Assembly: GCA_949299515.1 (NCBI GenBank)
Contig: CASGAP010000014.1
Location: 1 to 64,000 of the forward strand
Direction: 5' to 3'
Length of the DNA stretch: 64,000 bases
Source of the DNA: an uncultured Desulfovibrionaceae bacterium
Lineage (GTDB): Bacteria; Desulfobacterota; Desulfovibrionia; Desulfovibrionales; Desulfovibrionaceae
Below, piece by piece: positions 12,170 through 31,486 of this stretch (position 1 is its first letter; each line of letters begins with the position of its first letter). A program made the position numbers and the translations under genes. A model generated the notes under the pieces. That model was given only the letters and a program-made list of their open reading frames with translations, was not told the origin of the DNA and ran no database searches.

Positions 12170-12877
12170 TTAATGCCCGAGATAAGCTTTTTGCACGCTG
12201 GGATTGGTCAGCAGGCTTTCCGCGCTGTCTTCCATGATAATGCGGCCCATTTCCATAACATAGCCGCGGGTGGCTATTTTCAGGGCGGCTTTGGCATTTT
12301 GTTCCACGATAAGAATGGTTACGCCGTTTTCGTTGACTTTTTTGACGGTTTCAAAAATCGCTTTTACCAAGAGCGGCGCAAGGCCGAGGGAAGGCTCGTC
12401 AAGCAGGAGGATTTTGGGCTGTCCCATAAGGGCGCGGCCAATGGCAAGCATTTGCTGTTCGCCGCCCGAAAGCGTTCCTGCCATTTGGTTTCTGCGCTCG
12501 TACAGGCGCGGAAAAAGGGAATATATCCAGTCCAGGCTTTCTTCCGTGACTTTTTTGTTTTCAACGGTAAAGGCGCCGAGTTTGAGGTTTTCAAGCACGG
12601 TCAGGGAATTGAAAACGCGCCGTCCTTCCGGGGATTGGGTCAGGCCGCGGGTAACGATTTCATGGCTGGGAAGTTTGCTGATTTCTTCGCCGGCAAGGCG
12701 TATGCTGCCGCGCATAAAGGTTGCGAGGCCGCTTATGGTGTGCATGGTTGTTGTTTTGCCTGCGCCGTTGGCACCCAAAATGCTGACGATTTCGCCTTGG
12801 TTTACGTGCAGGCTTACGCCGTGCAGCACTTCAATCTGTCCGTACCCTGCGCAGACATTGTCCAATTCTAAAAACAT
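12170..12877 (-). CDS. livF: branched-chain amino acid ABC transporter ATP-binding protein LivF
   Basis: ATPase subunit of 235 aa. Walker A GANGAGKTT (about residues 36-44), the signature LSGGEQQMLAIGRAL (about 137-151) and Walker B ILLLDEPS are all present. The C-terminal region TRGYVMEMGRI is typical of LivF. It is the last gene of the minus-strand livHMGF operon, 10 bp after livG, with GGGAGAAA before the ATG. It powers uptake of leucine, isoleucine and valine, or of related amides, together with LivG. Confidence 0.93.
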   Translation of the reverse strand: MFLELDNVCAGYGQIEVLHGVSLHVNQGEIVSILGANGAGKTTTMHTISGLATFMRGSIRLAGEEISKLPSHEIVTRGLTQSPEGRRVFNSLTVLENLKLGAFTVENKKVTEESLDWIYSLFPRLYERRNQMAGTLSGGEQQMLAIGRALMGQPKILLLDEPSLGLAPLLVKAIFETVKKVNENGVTILIVEQNAKAALKIATRGYVMEMGRIIMEDSAESLLTNPSVQKAYLGH

Positions 12878-12887
12878 AGTTTCTCCC

Positions 12888-13655
12888 TTAGTCGTCGCGG
12901 CCGAGGTAGGCTTCTATAACCCGCGGGTTGCTGCGCACTTCCTGCGGCAGGCCTTCGGCGATTTTTGTGCCGTATTCGATAACCACCAGTTTTTCGCAGA
13001 CATTCATTACAAGTCCCATGTCGTGTTCGATGAGCATTACGGTAATGCCGCGTTTTTGAATGGCGTGGATAAGCTGTATCAGCACTTCCGTTTCGGGCTG
13101 GTTCATGCTGCCCGCAGGTTCGTCCAATATGATAAGTTTGGGGTCGGAGGCAAGGGCGCGCGCCATTTCCAGAAGGCGCTGGTTGCCGTAAGACAAAGAA
13201 CCCGCGCGTTCCTGCCACATGGGGGCAAGGCCGACAAATTCCAGTTCCTGCATGGCGCGGTCTATGGCGTCTTTTTCTTCTTTTTTCTGACTCGGCAGGC
13301 GGAACATGGAGGAAAACAGACCGCTTTTCATGCGGCAGTGTCTGCCTGCAAGCACGTTCTCCAGTACGGGCAGATTGGAAAACAGGCGTATGGACTGGAA
13401 TGTTCTGGAAATTCCCTGTTCCACTATCTGGTGGGGTTTGAGTTTGACAAGGGATTTTCCCTGAAAGCGGATATCGCCGCTGTCCGGCACGTAGTTGCCC
13501 GTAATCAGGTTAAAAACCGTGGTTTTTCCCGCACCGTTGGGGCCTATGATGCCGATGACGGAACCGTCTTGCACGTCAAAGCTCATATTGTTTACGGCTT
13601 TGAGGCCGCCGAAGGTTTTTGTCACATTTTCCAAAGAGAGCAAGGGAGTATCCAT
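12888..13655 (-). CDS. livG: branched-chain amino acid ABC transporter ATP-binding protein LivG
   Basis: ATPase subunit of 255 aa with Walker A GPNGAGKTT (about 37-45), the LivG-type signature LSYGNQRLLEMARAL (about 155-169) and Walker B LIILDEPAG. The C-terminal extension ending in NPRVIEAYLGRD is typical of LivG. It starts one base after the livM stop, with AAAGGA just inside the livM end. Confidence 0.93.
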   Translation of the reverse strand: MDTPLLSLENVTKTFGGLKAVNNMSFDVQDGSVIGIIGPNGAGKTTVFNLITGNYVPDSGDIRFQGKSLVKLKPHQIVEQGISRTFQSIRLFSNLPVLENVLAGRHCRMKSGLFSSMFRLPSQKKEEKDAIDRAMQELEFVGLAPMWQERAGSLSYGNQRLLEMARALASDPKLIILDEPAGSMNQPETEVLIQLIHAIQKRGITVMLIEHDMGLVMNVCEKLVVIEYGTKIAEGLPQEVRSNPRVIEAYLGRDD

Positions 13656-13656
13656 A

Positions 13657-14649
13657 TTATGCGTCCTTTGCCGTCATAGTTTCGAGTTTTTGCGTCCATT
13701 GTTCGGACAAAGTGAATTTTTTCGGGCGGGGAGGCAAAATGCCCTGCGGGCGGATAATCATCATAATCATCAGTGCCAGGCCGAAAATGAGCATACGCGC
13801 ATCTGCAAAGCCGCGGAAAATTTCCGGCAGGCCGAAAACAAGGAACGCGCCGAGAATAACGCCTGCCTGGCTGCCGCCGCCGAGGATAACCGCGGCAAAA
13901 AGAAGCACGGAATCCCAAAAAGTGAAGGAGCCCGGAGAAATAATGGTCATTTTTGCCGCAAACAGCGTTCCTGCCATGCCAGCCCAAAAGGCGCCGAGCA
14001 TGAATGCCGCGGTTTTGTAATGCGCAACGTTGATGCCGCAGCCTTCCGCGGCTATGTCGTCTTCCTTAATGCAGGACAGCGCCCTGCCGAAACGGGAATT
14101 GTTCAGCCAGTGGAACAGAATAAGCGTGGCAAAGACAAAAGTCCAGATAAGGTAGTAGAACTGCATATCTTTTTTAATTTTTATGCCGAAAAGTTCCGGT
14201 CTGGAAATGCCGAAAATGCCGTTGGCGCCGCCTGTCAGGCCGCCGAGGTCGTTAACAAGGGCTATGCGCACGATTTCCACAATGCCGATGGTGACCATGA
14301 GCAGATAGTCACCGCGCAGGTGAATGATGGGACGGGCCACAAGCCCCGCAAAAATTGCGGAAATTATGCCCGAAACCGGGAGCAGATAAAAAATCGGAAT
14401 GCCGAGACGGGTATTTAAAATGGCCGTCACATAGGCGCCCACGGCATAAAAGGCGGCGTGCCCCATGTGGAAAATGCCTGCCTGTCCCAAAATAACGTTC
14501 AGGGAAAGGGACAAAAGCGTGCCGAGTCCGACGCTGACGAAAACCGCCGTCCAGTAGGTATTGAGCATGAGCGGCAGCAGTGCCATAAATGCGGCGAAAA
14601 CGCAGAAAATCCAAATATAAGCGTTTTTTGCGGTTTTTTTGTTCATCAT
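13657..14649 (-). CDS. livM: branched-chain amino acid ABC transporter permease LivM
   Basis: Inner-membrane permease of 330 aa with about ten hydrophobic segments. The family region GQAGIFHMGHAAFYAVGAY lies near residues 50-70 and the EAA-like loop SFTFWDSVLLF...LGG near 240-265. Its ATG overlaps the livH stop (14646-14649), so the two permeases are translationally coupled. Confidence 0.92.
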   Translation of the reverse strand: MMNKKTAKNAYIWIFCVFAAFMALLPLMLNTYWTAVFVSVGLGTLLSLSLNVILGQAGIFHMGHAAFYAVGAYVTAILNTRLGIPIFYLLPVSGIISAIFAGLVARPIIHLRGDYLLMVTIGIVEIVRIALVNDLGGLTGGANGIFGISRPELFGIKIKKDMQFYYLIWTFVFATLILFHWLNNSRFGRALSCIKEDDIAAEGCGINVAHYKTAAFMLGAFWAGMAGTLFAAKMTIISPGSFTFWDSVLLFAAVILGGGSQAGVILGAFLVFGLPEIFRGFADARMLIFGLALMIMMIIRPQGILPPRPKKFTLSEQWTQKLETMTAKDA

Positions 14650-15551
14650 AATTTTTCTGCCACCCTTTCGCCGAGTATGCCGGTAGGCCGGATAATTAAA
14701 ATAAGGATAAGCACAAAGAAGGAAATGGCGTCTTTCCAGGCAATGGTCAGGTAGGCCGCGCCGAGGGTTTCCACAAGGCCGAGGATAAGGCCGCCGATCA
14801 TGGCGCCGGGAATGTTGCCGATACCGCCGAGAATTGCTGCGGTAAAGGCCTTAAGACCGTAGGAAAAGCCCATGCTGTAGTCGATTTGGCCGTAAGCAAG
14901 CCCCACCATGAGGCCCGCAACGCCGCCCAGTCCCGGTCCGATAAGGAAGACAAGGGCAATAATGCGGTTGACGTTGATGCCCATCAGTTTGGCTGCGCCC
15001 TGGTCAATGGCTGCCGCGCGTATGGCGGTGCCTGTTTTGGTTCTGTGAATGAACCAGTAAAGGATAAGCATGAGCAGAACGGACGCGCCGATAAGGATAA
15101 AGCGTATGGCAGGCACGCCCATGCCGAAAAGGTTTATGATTGTGGTGGGCCGGACGCTTTCGGGGTAAACGTAATAATTGCCGCCCCAAAGCAGCAGAAT
15201 GGCGTTTTGAAAGAAAATGGACGCGCCCACTGCGGAAACCACGGCGGAAAGCCTGCTTGCATTGCGCAGGGGACGGTAAGCGGTGCGTTCGAGAAGGCCG
15301 CCCAAAAGAGCCACCAGCCCCATAACCATAAGAGCCACCAGCACAATGGCGGCGTAAACAGGCAGGGAGCCTGCCAGTTTGAAGCTGACAAAGAGCGTCA
15401 TGCCGAGATAGGCGCCTATGGTGAACAAATCGCCGTGGGCGAAGTTGATGAGCTTAAGCACGCCGTAAACCATGGTGTAGCCGAGGGCTACAAGGGCATA
15501 AATGCCGCCTATGGTCAGGCCGTTGATGATTTGTTGAAAAAATTGCTCCAT
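14646..15551 (-). CDS. livH: branched-chain amino acid ABC transporter permease LivH
   Basis: Permease of 301 aa with the LivH opening GLTIGGIYALVALGYTMVYG (about residues 10-29) followed by NFAHGDLF. It is the first gene of livHMGF. The periplasmic binding protein (LivK/J) that normally accompanies the operon is not in this window: upstream lies a diguanylate cyclase, and the 120-bp gap holds no gene. The transporter must use a binding protein encoded elsewhere, so its exact substrate cannot be inferred here. Confidence 0.92.
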   Translation of the reverse strand: MEQFFQQIINGLTIGGIYALVALGYTMVYGVLKLINFAHGDLFTIGAYLGMTLFVSFKLAGSLPVYAAIVLVALMVMGLVALLGGLLERTAYRPLRNASRLSAVVSAVGASIFFQNAILLLWGGNYYVYPESVRPTTIINLFGMGVPAIRFILIGASVLLMLILYWFIHRTKTGTAIRAAAIDQGAAKLMGINVNRIIALVFLIGPGLGGVAGLMVGLAYGQIDYSMGFSYGLKAFTAAILGGIGNIPGAMIGGLILGLVETLGAAYLTIAWKDAISFFVLILILIIRPTGILGERVAEKL

Positions 15552-27521: not shown

Positions 27522-27553
27522 AAAAAAAGCTGTTGAAAAACAGCTTTTTTTGT
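27522..27553 (+). terminator. terminator after the AGCS symporter
   Basis: Stem AAAAAAGCTGTT / AACAGCTTTTTT with a GAAA-type tetraloop and T-run; symmetric enough to work on both strands. Confidence 0.9.
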
Positions 27554-27571
27554 CTTTGTGAACATTTTTAC

Positions 27572-27600
27572 TTGGCTTTTAGCCCTAAATTGGATATACT
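27572..27600 (+). promoter_or_regulatory. promoter of the kinase/binding-protein operon
   Basis: TTGGCT (27572-27577), 17-bp spacer, TATACT (27595-27600). The start near 27607 excludes the longer kinase frame that would begin at 27558 and supports ATG 27648. Confidence 0.65.
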
Positions 27601-27647
27601 GTAATAAGAAATATATTGTACGGCTCTGCCGGGAGATTTTTTTAGTT

Positions 27648-29888
27648 ATGGCTTCAGGTATCAGAAATTTCCGTTTGGGACTGAAAGGAAAAATTTTACT
27701 TGTTGTTCTGTGTGTTTTTGCCTGTTTTATGGCTCTTTCCACTTTTTTTCTGTATACGGCCTATAACTCAACTCTTGATAAAATTAAGCTTTCCCGTGCC
27801 GAGGAACGTACCGGCATTATAGGCAGGGGAATAAGCTCGCAGCTGCAGAGCGCTACGGATACGCTGCGGCTTGCGGCAAAATTTTTTCCGCTGCTCGGTG
27901 AAGAAGGTCTGCGGGAGAGCAGCACCGCTGAAAGCCGCTTTACGCAATATCTCGCTGAAGTCGGCAATTCGTTTCATTTTTTTGATTCCGTCAGTGTATA
28001 CGATAAAGTCGGGAACCTGCTTTTCGGCAAGGAACAGCGCTTTTCCAGAAACAGATTGTTAAAGGAACTGGGGTGGTTCAGGCGCGTTCAGTTTGACGGC
28101 AGCATTGTATACGGTCATGCTTTTGTTTCCAAACAAAATTCCCAGACGCAGCTGCCGGTCGGACTGTCCGCGGAATATAAGGGCAGGCAATATTTTATCT
28201 GCGGTCTGCTTGCTCTGGAAAATTTAACCGACGATTATCTTTTTCAAAACGTGGCCTTGGAACAAAGTGCTTTTTTGCTGGATAAGAACGGTGTCGTGCT
28301 CAATTCCACAAACGCAAAATATAAGGGCGTCAGAATTCTGCAGAGTCAGATTGATTTTATGAATATGCACAGTTTCGGGGCAAGGCGCTATGTTTCCCAA
28401 AAAGGGGACGAATGGTATTTTGGTTTTTATAAAATTCCGCAGGCAAACTTGTTTTGCGTTGTATATCTGTTTTCGGACAGATATGATGTGTGGCGGGCGC
28501 AGCTAGCCGACAGAACAAACCTGATTCGTTTTGTCGCTTCGCTGGCTGCCATAATGATAGTGATATGTTTTGTTTTTCCCGCTATCCATGATTTGCGGGG
28601 GCTGACAAAATATATTGATAAGGTTTCCGGGAATAATTTTGAAGCTGCGCATATGGACGAAAGGATTTTGCGGCGCAACGACGAGATCGGCGATTTTGCA
28701 AGAAGTTTGGAAAATATGGTTCGGAATATCCTTGAATTGCTGCAGAAAGCCAATGAAACCATACAGGTTAAAAATCGGTTTATCGAAAAAATGAGTCATG
28801 AAATACGTATGCCTCTCAACAATATTGCGGCGTCCTGCTATCTTGCCCAGCAAAACTGTCCCGATCCGCTGCTGAAAAATTATTTGGTGCAGATCGAAAC
28901 CACCGCGCAGAATTTGCTGAAGCTGGCTGTCAATATTCAGGATTTTTCCAAATACGATATGGACCAGTGTTTTTCCAGTGAAGAGCTTTTTAATTTACAG
29001 GAAATGCTGCTTTCCATTAAAAATCTGCTGAAAAATAAAAGCGCTAAAAAGAAACTGGCGTATAATTTCAGCATAAATGAAAATGTTCCCTTATATATCC
29101 GTTCCAATAAGGAAAAAATGCGCAGGATTTTGCTCAATTTAATCAGCAATGCGATTAAATTTACCGACAGCGGTTATGTGCACGTGGATATTGCCTGTGA
29201 ACCGTATAAACAGGGGTATGCCCTTGTTATGGAAATATTGGATTCGGGTATAGGCATGGACCCCGGAACAGTCCGGGAACTGTTCGGCAAAACTTCCGCA
29301 AAGGAAGCCGAAAGCGGACAGACTGCATTTAATCCCCGCGGACTGCTTATTGTGAAAGCTGCAGTTGATGCCATGGGCGGCGAAATTGATGTGCAGAGTA
29401 CCCGGCATATCGGTACTTCCGTAAAAGTCACGGTGCCGGTGGAAAAAGGCACGGCAGAGCACAGCGCAGATAACACTGTGCTTGTTTTGTCCGAAAATAA
29501 TGGCGCTTTTTTGTCCGTGCTTTTGGCGGAAGGCGATAAAACCGTTCTTTCCGCATTGCAGATTATGCTGGAGCAGGCCAACTGCAAAGTATATGTTGCG
29601 GTAAACGGGGAAGATGCCGTAAGCATAGCCGAGGAAAATGTGCTTGATTTGGCTTTTATTGATGTGGAAATGCCGATAATGGACGGTTTTGAAACGGCAA
29701 AGCGTATTTTAAGCGTGCCCGAACAGCGGAATTTGCTGATTATTGCACTTGCCGATTGTATCAGTTTTGAAGACAAAACTAAATGTTATGAGGCAGGCAT
29801 GGCTGATTGTATTGATAAGCAATTGGATTCGAAAGAATTTTATACTTTATTGAAAAAATGGGCAGAAAGAGTCAAAGGAAAGGAGTAA
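27648..29888 (+). CDS. membrane hybrid sensor histidine kinase/response regulator
   Basis: Protein of 746 aa. Membrane segments lie at about 15-39 and 293-313, enclosing a roughly 250-residue periplasmic sensor region of the double-Cache size. A HAMP-like linker (about 314-365) leads to the HisKA H-box KMSHEIRMPLNN (His384), the N-box LISNAIKF and the G1 box DSGIGM; the usual G2 motif is weak. A receiver domain (about 620-745) has the phospho-acceptor Asp672 in FIDVEMPIMDG. Its switch Thr/Ser is Ala (IIALADC) and the Lys is followed by Gln rather than Pro, so signalling may be altered. It is followed after one base by a periplasmic sugar-binding protein, its likely sensing partner. No output regulator or HPt is nearby. 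Confidence 0.9.
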   Translation: MASGIRNFRLGLKGKILLVVLCVFACFMALSTFFLYTAYNSTLDKIKLSRAEERTGIIGRGISSQLQSATDTLRLAAKFFPLLGEEGLRESSTAESRFTQYLAEVGNSFHFFDSVSVYDKVGNLLFGKEQRFSRNRLLKELGWFRRVQFDGSIVYGHAFVSKQNSQTQLPVGLSAEYKGRQYFICGLLALENLTDDYLFQNVALEQSAFLLDKNGVVLNSTNAKYKGVRILQSQIDFMNMHSFGARRYVSQKGDEWYFGFYKIPQANLFCVVYLFSDRYDVWRAQLADRTNLIRFVASLAAIMIVICFVFPAIHDLRGLTKYIDKVSGNNFEAAHMDERILRRNDEIGDFARSLENMVRNILELLQKANETIQVKNRFIEKMSHEIRMPLNNIAASCYLAQQNCPDPLLKNYLVQIETTAQNLLKLAVNIQDFSKYDMDQCFSSEELFNLQEMLLSIKNLLKNKSAKKKLAYNFSINENVPLYIRSNKEKMRRILLNLISNAIKFTDSGYVHVDIACEPYKQGYALVMEILDSGIGMDPGTVRELFGKTSAKEAESGQTAFNPRGLLIVKAAVDAMGGEIDVQSTRHIGTSVKVTVPVEKGTAEHSADNTVLVLSENNGAFLSVLLAEGDKTVLSALQIMLEQANCKVYVAVNGEDAVSIAEENVLDLAFIDVEMPIMDGFETAKRILSVPEQRNLLIIALADCISFEDKTKCYEAGMADCIDKQLDSKEFYTLLKKWAERVKGKE

Positions 29889-29889
29889 T

Positions 29890-30921
29890 ATGCGAAGGGG
29901 GGTAATTTTTTGGGGTTTGCTGTTGGCTGCAATTTTGGGCTTAGGCGTACACGGTGTCTGTTTTGCGGACGAGAAATATAAAATTGCCTGTTTTGTCCGC
30001 AGCATGGACGATGAATATCTTGCCGAGTTAGCGCAGGAACTGCGGACACAGCTGCAGGACAGCTGCGAAATAGAAGTATACGATGCGCAAAACGATATGC
30101 ATTTGCAGCTTAGTCAGCTTCGCGCCAGTATTCATGAAAAAACCGACTTGGTGCTGGTGAACATTGTCCGGCCCGTTTATGTTTCGGAAGTGCTGGACAT
30201 GCTGCAAAAATTTGATTTGCCTGCAGTATTCTTTAAAAATGAGCCGAATGTACAGATTTTTGAAGGATATAAAAATATCGTTATGGTTGCGAATAACGGG
30301 GTGGAAGAAGGCAGAAGACAAGGGCGGCTGCTGGATTTGGTATGGAATTTGGAAAAATACGACAAAAACAAAGACGGCAAGCTGCAGTATGTGCTGCTGC
30401 AGGGCCCTGCCGGGAATTTCGAAGCTATTTCCAGATCGCTGTATTCCATAAATACCGCCAAAGAATTAGGGCTTCCTTTGGAACAGCTTGGGGAAAATTT
30501 TATCTGCAATTGGCGCAGAAGCCTTTGCTATGAAACCATGCCGGAAATTATGAAACAATACGGCGATTCCGTGGAACTTATTATCAGCAATAACGATAAT
30601 ATGGCGCTCGGTGCTCTGCGCTATTTGAATGAACAGGGGCTGAACGTCGAGCAGGACGATATTGCCATTATCGGGTTTGACGGCATAAAAGAAGCCAGGG
30701 AAAAAATCCGTCAGGGTGTTTTTACCGCCACTGTGGTACAGGGTTTGGACGAAATGGCATATCTTATTAAAGAAATGGTGATTAATCATCTGAGCGGCAA
30801 GGATTGGCTCTACGGCACGGGGTATCAGTGGGAAGTGGACAATGTTTCCGTGCGTATTAACGGCAATTACACATACCTCGCGAAAGAGGGTGCGTATGTA
30901 CGTAAAATCATAGATTTTTAG
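29890..30921 (+). CDS. MglB-like periplasmic sugar-binding protein without a transporter
   Basis: Type I periplasmic binding protein of 343 aa. The signal peptide ends at about CFA|DEKYK (residues 26-27). It resembles the galactose/glucose-binding protein MglB. The calcium loop DKNKDGKLQ is intact. Sugar-pocket positions can be matched: Arg in ISRSLYS, Trp in CNWRRS, Asn in ISNNDNMALG and Asp in GFDGI. AAAGGAG lies inside the end of the kinase gene. No MglA or MglC partner is present. The pairing with a hybrid kinase suggests sugar sensing rather than uptake, as with ChvE-VirA or LuxP-LuxQ. An AI-2 role is not shown. Confidence 0.85.
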   Translation: MRRGVIFWGLLLAAILGLGVHGVCFADEKYKIACFVRSMDDEYLAELAQELRTQLQDSCEIEVYDAQNDMHLQLSQLRASIHEKTDLVLVNIVRPVYVSEVLDMLQKFDLPAVFFKNEPNVQIFEGYKNIVMVANNGVEEGRRQGRLLDLVWNLEKYDKNKDGKLQYVLLQGPAGNFEAISRSLYSINTAKELGLPLEQLGENFICNWRRSLCYETMPEIMKQYGDSVELIISNNDNMALGALRYLNEQGLNVEQDDIAIIGFDGIKEAREKIRQGVFTATVVQGLDEMAYLIKEMVINHLSGKDWLYGTGYQWEVDNVSVRINGNYTYLAKEGAYVRKIIDF

Positions 30922-30988: not shown

Positions 30989-31012
30989 AGAGGGCTTTGC
31001 CCTCTTTTTTTT
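30989..31012 (+). terminator. terminator after the sugar-binding protein gene
   Basis: Stem AGAGGGC / GCCCTCT with TTT loop and eight Ts. The remaining stretch to 31245 holds no gene. Confidence 0.92.
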
Positions 31013-31277: not shown

Positions 31278-31353
31278 TGGTGGATGGTGAGAGGCTCGAA
31301 CTCCCGACCCTCGGTGTGTAAAACCGATGCTCTACCAACTGAGCTAACCATCC
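31278..31353 (-). tRNA. tRNA-Val (anticodon TAC), copy 2
   Basis: 76 nt with encoded CCA. Acceptor GGATGGT / ACCATCC, anticodon loop TTTACAC giving TAC, T loop TTCGAGC. Identical in sequence to the copy at 31411-31486, with 57 bp between them, so both come from one transcript. Confidence 0.97.
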
Positions 31354-31410: not shown

Positions 31411-31486
31411 TGGTGGATGGTGAGAGGCTCGAACTCCCGACCCTCGGTGTGTAAAACCGATGCTCTACCAACTGAGCTAACCATCC
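31411..31486 (-). tRNA. tRNA-Val (anticodon TAC), copy 1
   Basis: Identical 76-nt copy with encoded CCA; it is promoter-proximal on the minus strand. Confidence 0.97.

Follow-up and report, generated by a model that had tools for sequence, protein, structure and literature searches.

An MglB-type binding protein paired with a dCache hybrid kinase whose catalytic motifs are eroded in one Desulfovibrionaceae lineage

The stretch of DNA analyzed here (the window, 64,000 nucleotides of an uncultured Desulfovibrionaceae bacterium) carries the gene of a hybrid histidine kinase homologue followed by the gene of an MglB-type periplasmic binding protein, and it belongs to an assembly of 1.76 Mb in 16 contigs that is 91% complete. 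The open reading frames (27648-29888 and 29890-30921) bear out the order proposed in a first-pass annotation, with both genes on the forward strand and a single base between them. The kinase frame opens with an ATG at 27648, an alternative upstream GTG start being possible at 27558, and the ATG of the binding protein is directly preceded by the ribosome-binding sequence AGGAG. A hairpin with a T run, found by eye at about 27524-27552, lies 5' of the kinase; together with the terminator-like site at 30989-31012 it bounds a two-gene unit. The single promoter claimed for this unit held up in part: the 9/12 sigma-70 match is well placed, but the region contains no more sigma-70-like matches than shuffled sequence. 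Directly downstream of the pair, the minus strand carries a tandem of tRNA-Val (TAC) genes, at 31278-31353 and 31411-31486.

Table 1. Features of the kinase/binding-protein unit, in window coordinates.
Feature	Position	Strand	Basis or remark
Possible promoter, TTGGCT-17-TATACT	27572..27600	+	sigma-70 consensus match 9/12, position correct
Hybrid histidine kinase homologue, 746 aa	27648..29888	+	ORF; HisKA, HATPase_c, Response_reg; motif table; probable pseudokinase
Periplasmic dCache sensor domain, about residues 43-292	27774..28523	+	AF2, Foldseek, VIA-align, profile match to PctC/CtaA
Weak HAMP linker, residues 316-362	28593..28733	+	PF00672 E 0.16, below cut-off
HisKA domain	28770..28958	+	H384 kept (28797-28799); Thr four residues on is Met388
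HATPase_c domain	29109..29444	+	retains the N and G1 boxes; F box lost
G2 box remnant, AFNPRGLLIVK in place of GGTGLGLAISK	29325..29357	+	kinase alignment
Pseudo-receiver	29517..29849	+	acid pair E-D changed to E-G (G629); D672 and K724 kept; Thr changed to A702
MglB-type periplasmic binding protein, 343 aa	29890..30921	+	ORF, domain, profile, phmmer, fold model
Calcium-binding loop DKNKDGKLQ	30361..30387	+	alignment with MglB and all pairs
Terminator-like hairpin with T run at the end of the two-gene unit	30989..31012	+	

The kinase has Pfam matches to HisKA, HATPase_c and Response_reg and a weak one to HAMP, and its periplasmic region has no Pfam match. AF2 models this region as a double Cache (two-sequence alignment, mean pLDDT 60). 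The best Foldseek match of the periplasmic model is to a kinase sensor domain (E 1.1e-9), and VIA-align against dCache sensor domains gives Z scores up to 17.7 over 227 residues. A profile of the paired sensors matches the solved dCache domains PctC and CtaA by sequence, while the dCache_1 scores of the relatives' sensors lie below the cut-off. We conclude that the periplasmic region, as modeled, is a dCache fold, in agreement with the double Cache that its size had first suggested.

The binding protein, the only one of the Peripla_BP_4 type in its genome, has MglB as its nearest family (phmmer 1.7e-34, profile 1.7e-78). Its AF2 model (pLDDT 87.7) aligns by VIA-align with Z scores of 36 to MglB, 32 to ribose-binding proteins and 29 to ChvE, and the calcium loop (DKNKDGKLQ and E229) is intact, which confirms the initial description of an MglB-like protein with a complete calcium site. 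It does not reach the NCBIfam MglB equivalog cut-off (134 bits against 420). The AI-2-like signal that had been raised as an option was rejected because neither profile nor sequence comparison detected similarity to LuxP or LsrB.

We searched 288 genomes of the same family with a profile of the binding protein and found it in 14, spread over six genera; among 395 genomes sampled from the phylum, the window's own was the only one to have it at the same cut-off, E 1e-40. Of the 14 carriers, 13 (one of them the window) have readable flanks, and in all 13 the kinase sits directly upstream; in the 14th a contig end cuts the locus and a matching kinase fragment lies on another contig. The pair is thus conserved in relatives, which the first-pass annotation had put forward as a check. 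It had also named, as a finding that would speak against the pairing, a kinase that routinely occurs without the binding protein. Two homologous dCache hybrid kinases, L042 and L047, do have no adjacent binding protein; they touch the claim weakly, but form a separate branch in the tree. In the closest named relative, an uncultured Mailhella sp. of the Desulfovibrionaceae (L015), the genes that surround the pair come in the same order. The pair was not found in three other genus members, whose flanking locus showed no clear empty site. Viral collections yielded generic kinases only and no relative of the binding protein, and we found no description of this pair in the open-access literature.

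No permease or ATPase gene adjoins the pair in the window, as had been noted at the outset, and no BPD_transp_2 permease was found near any pair in the family genomes. An mglAC neighborhood in close relatives, named beforehand as the finding that would contradict a partnership with the kinase, was not encountered at any of the 13 readable loci. Within the assembly (91% complete), the sole BPD_transp_2 genes are LivH/LivM-like (13657-15551) and no MglC-type permease was found. A hidden Mgl transporter elsewhere in the genome was accordingly discarded as a candidate, the only BPD_transp_2 pair being of the LivH/LivM type. Those permeases belong to a cluster at window 12170-15551 that also holds two ABC ATPase genes, with no adjoining binding-protein gene among the ORFs listed.

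MglB proteins are used by ABC transporters and by chemoreceptors alike. That dual use, together with flagellar genes nearby in the window, could be taken to mean that the binding protein works for a transporter or chemoreceptor encoded elsewhere and is paired with the kinase only as an operon. We regard this as highly improbable, given that the genome has no BPD_transp_2 permease other than LivH/LivM and no second Peripla_BP_4 protein, and that the adjacency is kept in 13 genomes. Binding-protein and dCache distances also correlate (r 0.85 without the window lineage), although shared ancestry alone could give such a value. Comparison across these genomes supports a binding protein that is dedicated to the kinase and not to a transporter.

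The binding protein has a signal peptide at about residues 1-26; by eye, most of the other paired binding proteins have a lipobox-like signal, and the window protein and that of L015 have no clear one. For the ligand pocket we use the residue numbers of the E. coli GGBP contacts. The claim that most sugar-pocket residues are present stands only in part: D14, E93, R158, W183, N211 and D236 are kept and F16 is Tyr, but the alignment gives Y10R, N91K, K92N, H152N, D154E and N256Q, so that with six contact positions changed the complete glucose/galactose contact set is absent. The changes of H152 to N (S in two pairs), D154 to E and N256 to Q are common to all pairs, and those of Y10 to R and N91-K92 to K-N are confined to the window and L015. 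These two do not differ at any of the 14 listed contact positions except 283, while the whole binding proteins are 70% identical. Because the pocket has gained Arg37 and Lys116, with about half of the MglB contacts kept, the added positive charge weakly suggests an anionic sugar-like ligand.

The catalytic motifs of the kinase are eroded in a lineage of two known members, the window and L015, the latter a metagenome assembly; the first-pass annotation had not noticed this erosion. In the kinase alignment, the H, N, G1, F and G2 boxes are canonical and the receiver active site is complete in the 11 other paired kinases and the two unpaired ones, and the G2, F and receiver motifs are lost only in the window kinase and in L015. 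The G2 sequence of L015 in the ATP lid, KFNARGLLIVK, is nearly identical to the window's AFNPRGLLIVK, and because the two assemblies are independent, we ruled out sequencing error as the source of the loss. In both receivers AEDN has become AEGD, with Gly in place of the second metal-binding acid, and the Thr position is Ala in the window and Ser in L015. L015 has in addition lost the phospho-acceptor His to Tyr (KMSYEIRTP, codon tat); the window kinase keeps it, but has Met four residues further on, at the position of the phosphatase-motif Thr. The motif set of an active HisKA hybrid kinase is therefore incomplete in the window, with His, N and G1 present and F and G2 missing. All 15 of the other HisKA kinases in this genome keep the GxGLG box of a canonical G2, and of the 16 the window kinase scores lowest against HisKA. 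Across HisKA domains generally, the phospho-acceptor His is missing in only 0.9% (PMC12632262). A pseudo-receiver has been defined as a receiver without any one of DD, D, T and K (PMC12632262), a definition that covers the window receiver (DD2 is Gly, T is Ala). From this loss of motifs, we predict that the window kinase is a probable pseudokinase. A second HisKA hybrid kinase of the same genome (L117; G000 contig 3, about 117700-118900) is split over two frames after the DHp, which may be a frameshift or an assembly error.

The search for a solitary HPt that the first-pass annotation had recommended did find one, just downstream of the gene for a 1143-aa REC-GGDEF-EAL protein on contig 4 (L025:6772-10555). 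These two genes are a candidate phosphorelay into c-di-GMP control, and the HPt is a candidate partner of the window kinase. However, each of the six genomes examined from the genus has a solitary HPt, even those in which the pair was not found, and the HPt is therefore not specific to the pair; as a dedicated partner we rejected it.

An ordinary active three-component system, in which the ligand-bound MglB-like protein activates the dCache hybrid kinase and phosphate moves from H384 to D672 and on through an HPt to a response regulator, would fit the LuxPQ architecture, the retention of the N and G1 boxes and of H384, D672 and K724, the solitary HPt beside the REC-GGDEF-EAL protein, and the other 11 paired kinases. 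Since those 11 look fully active, the active-phosphorelay model probably holds for them. For the window pair we consider it unlikely: the G2 and F boxes and the receiver DD2 are lost in both lineage members, L015 lacks the His, and a solitary HPt also occurs in genomes where the pair was not found. With the catalytic machinery eroded in this lineage, a phosphorelay of the LuxQ or VirA type cannot be assumed, and a simple relay from sugar binding to phosphotransfer, though possible, is the less likely model here. At the same time, because the window kinase retains H384, D672 and K724 as well as its N and G1 boxes, weak, residual or partner-assisted kinase activity is possible.

Erosion could also mean decay, an ancestral active pair being lost in small-genome gut species with neither protein functional now. 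The genome is small (1.76 Mb), the pair was not found in three other genus members, the DHp losses differ (the His in L015, the phosphatase-motif Thr in the window), and the kinase is much less conserved between window and L015 (54% identity) than most neighbors (71-93%). Yet at that 54% identity the frames are full-length in both species, the DHp is the best-kept kinase domain (63%), and the pocket residues are identical. Between window and L015, Nei-Gojobori dN/dS comes to about 0.22 in the kinase and 0.13 in the binding protein, with neighbors at 0.06-0.24; the values are rough because dS is high and near saturation, but they indicate that both genes remain under purifying selection. We therefore judge decay improbable, less so than an unlinked partner. 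In the kinase tree as in the binding-protein tree, the window lineage has a long stem, so the two proteins have changed in step when compared with the other pairs.

The likeness to LuxQ-LuxP drawn in the first-pass annotation applies to the layout, a conserved binding-protein/kinase pair without a transporter, but does not extend to the catalytic motifs, which are eroded here. As in LuxP-LuxQ, a periplasmic partner with the binding-protein fold accompanies a hybrid kinase, and the LuxQ_Vibrio model finds the core of the window kinase at E 3e-49, though far below the cut-off of that model. The LuxQ periplasmic domain is a tandem Cache/PAS, and the window kinase likewise has a dCache periplasmic domain in a hybrid kinase. 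The two systems differ in that the window binding protein is of the MglB type with no LuxP match, the kinase gene comes first, and the G2 box and receiver are degenerate. LuxQ and LuxP structures were not among the top fold matches listed, which excludes nothing. With MglB, the window protein shares the fold (Z 36), the calcium loop and about half of the pocket residues, but it is only 25-28% identical, comes without MglA/MglC and has six contacts changed.

In VirA-ChvE, too, a binding protein is the co-receptor of a kinase. XylFII-LytS, CuaD-CuaS, VirA-ChvE and TorT-TorS belong to other sensor families and have catalytically intact kinases, several with a linked response regulator; the co-receptor role of the binding protein is what they have in common with the window pair. 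For XylFII-LytS, CuaD-CuaS and TorT-TorS, that role has been described (PMC10384115, PMC9602780). Elsewhere, a Neisseriaceae MAG from yak reticulum (L017:2944-6903) has an MglB-like, lipoprotein-like gene divergent to the gene of an HPt and HATPase protein with a hydrophobic N-terminal segment, next to a CheY-like regulator gene, and this is possibly an independent binding-protein/kinase pairing. A Clostridium MAG (L016:476-6942) has three MglB-like binding proteins in 12.9 kb, with no obvious permease among the listed ORFs.

A precedent for function without catalysis is DivL, a Caulobacter pseudo-histidine kinase. Its phospho-acceptor His is Tyr, catalysis is lost with the fold retained, and the protein shows no kinase or phosphatase activity and acts through binding (PMC4211667). 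DivL senses DivK~P inside the cell, and passages of that paper describe no binding-protein partner for it. The change of His to Tyr is shared by L015 only, whereas the window kinase keeps the His and has lost the G2 box.

Taken as a whole, the family is most naturally read as a LuxPQ-like, binding-protein-driven hybrid kinase. For the window lineage, the reading that we favor, at roughly even chances, is a LuxP-LuxQ-like co-receptor of binding protein and dCache kinase in which the kinase is now a probable pseudo-hybrid-kinase that acts through protein contacts. Somewhat more tentatively, we propose that the binding protein controls a full-length pseudo-hybrid-kinase without phosphotransfer of its own, derived from an ancestral pair with an active kinase, and with a shifted ligand pocket. 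The soluble periplasmic protein would close on a small polar ligand and dock, ligand-bound, on the dCache domain, and docking would change the conformation of the HAMP-DHp-CA dimer. The output would then be conformational, as in DivL, and not the kinase's own autophosphorylation or phosphotransfer; it might consist of binding or blocking a response regulator, another histidine kinase or the solitary HPt protein.

Documented cases of sensor kinases driven by binding proteins number only about ten (PMC9602780), and how pseudo-receivers are switched is an open question (PMC12632262). With 11 apparently active and two apparently inactive versions of one pair, this one family offers a small natural series for testing how a receptor keeps its function after the loss of catalysis, and what gut sulfidogens sense.
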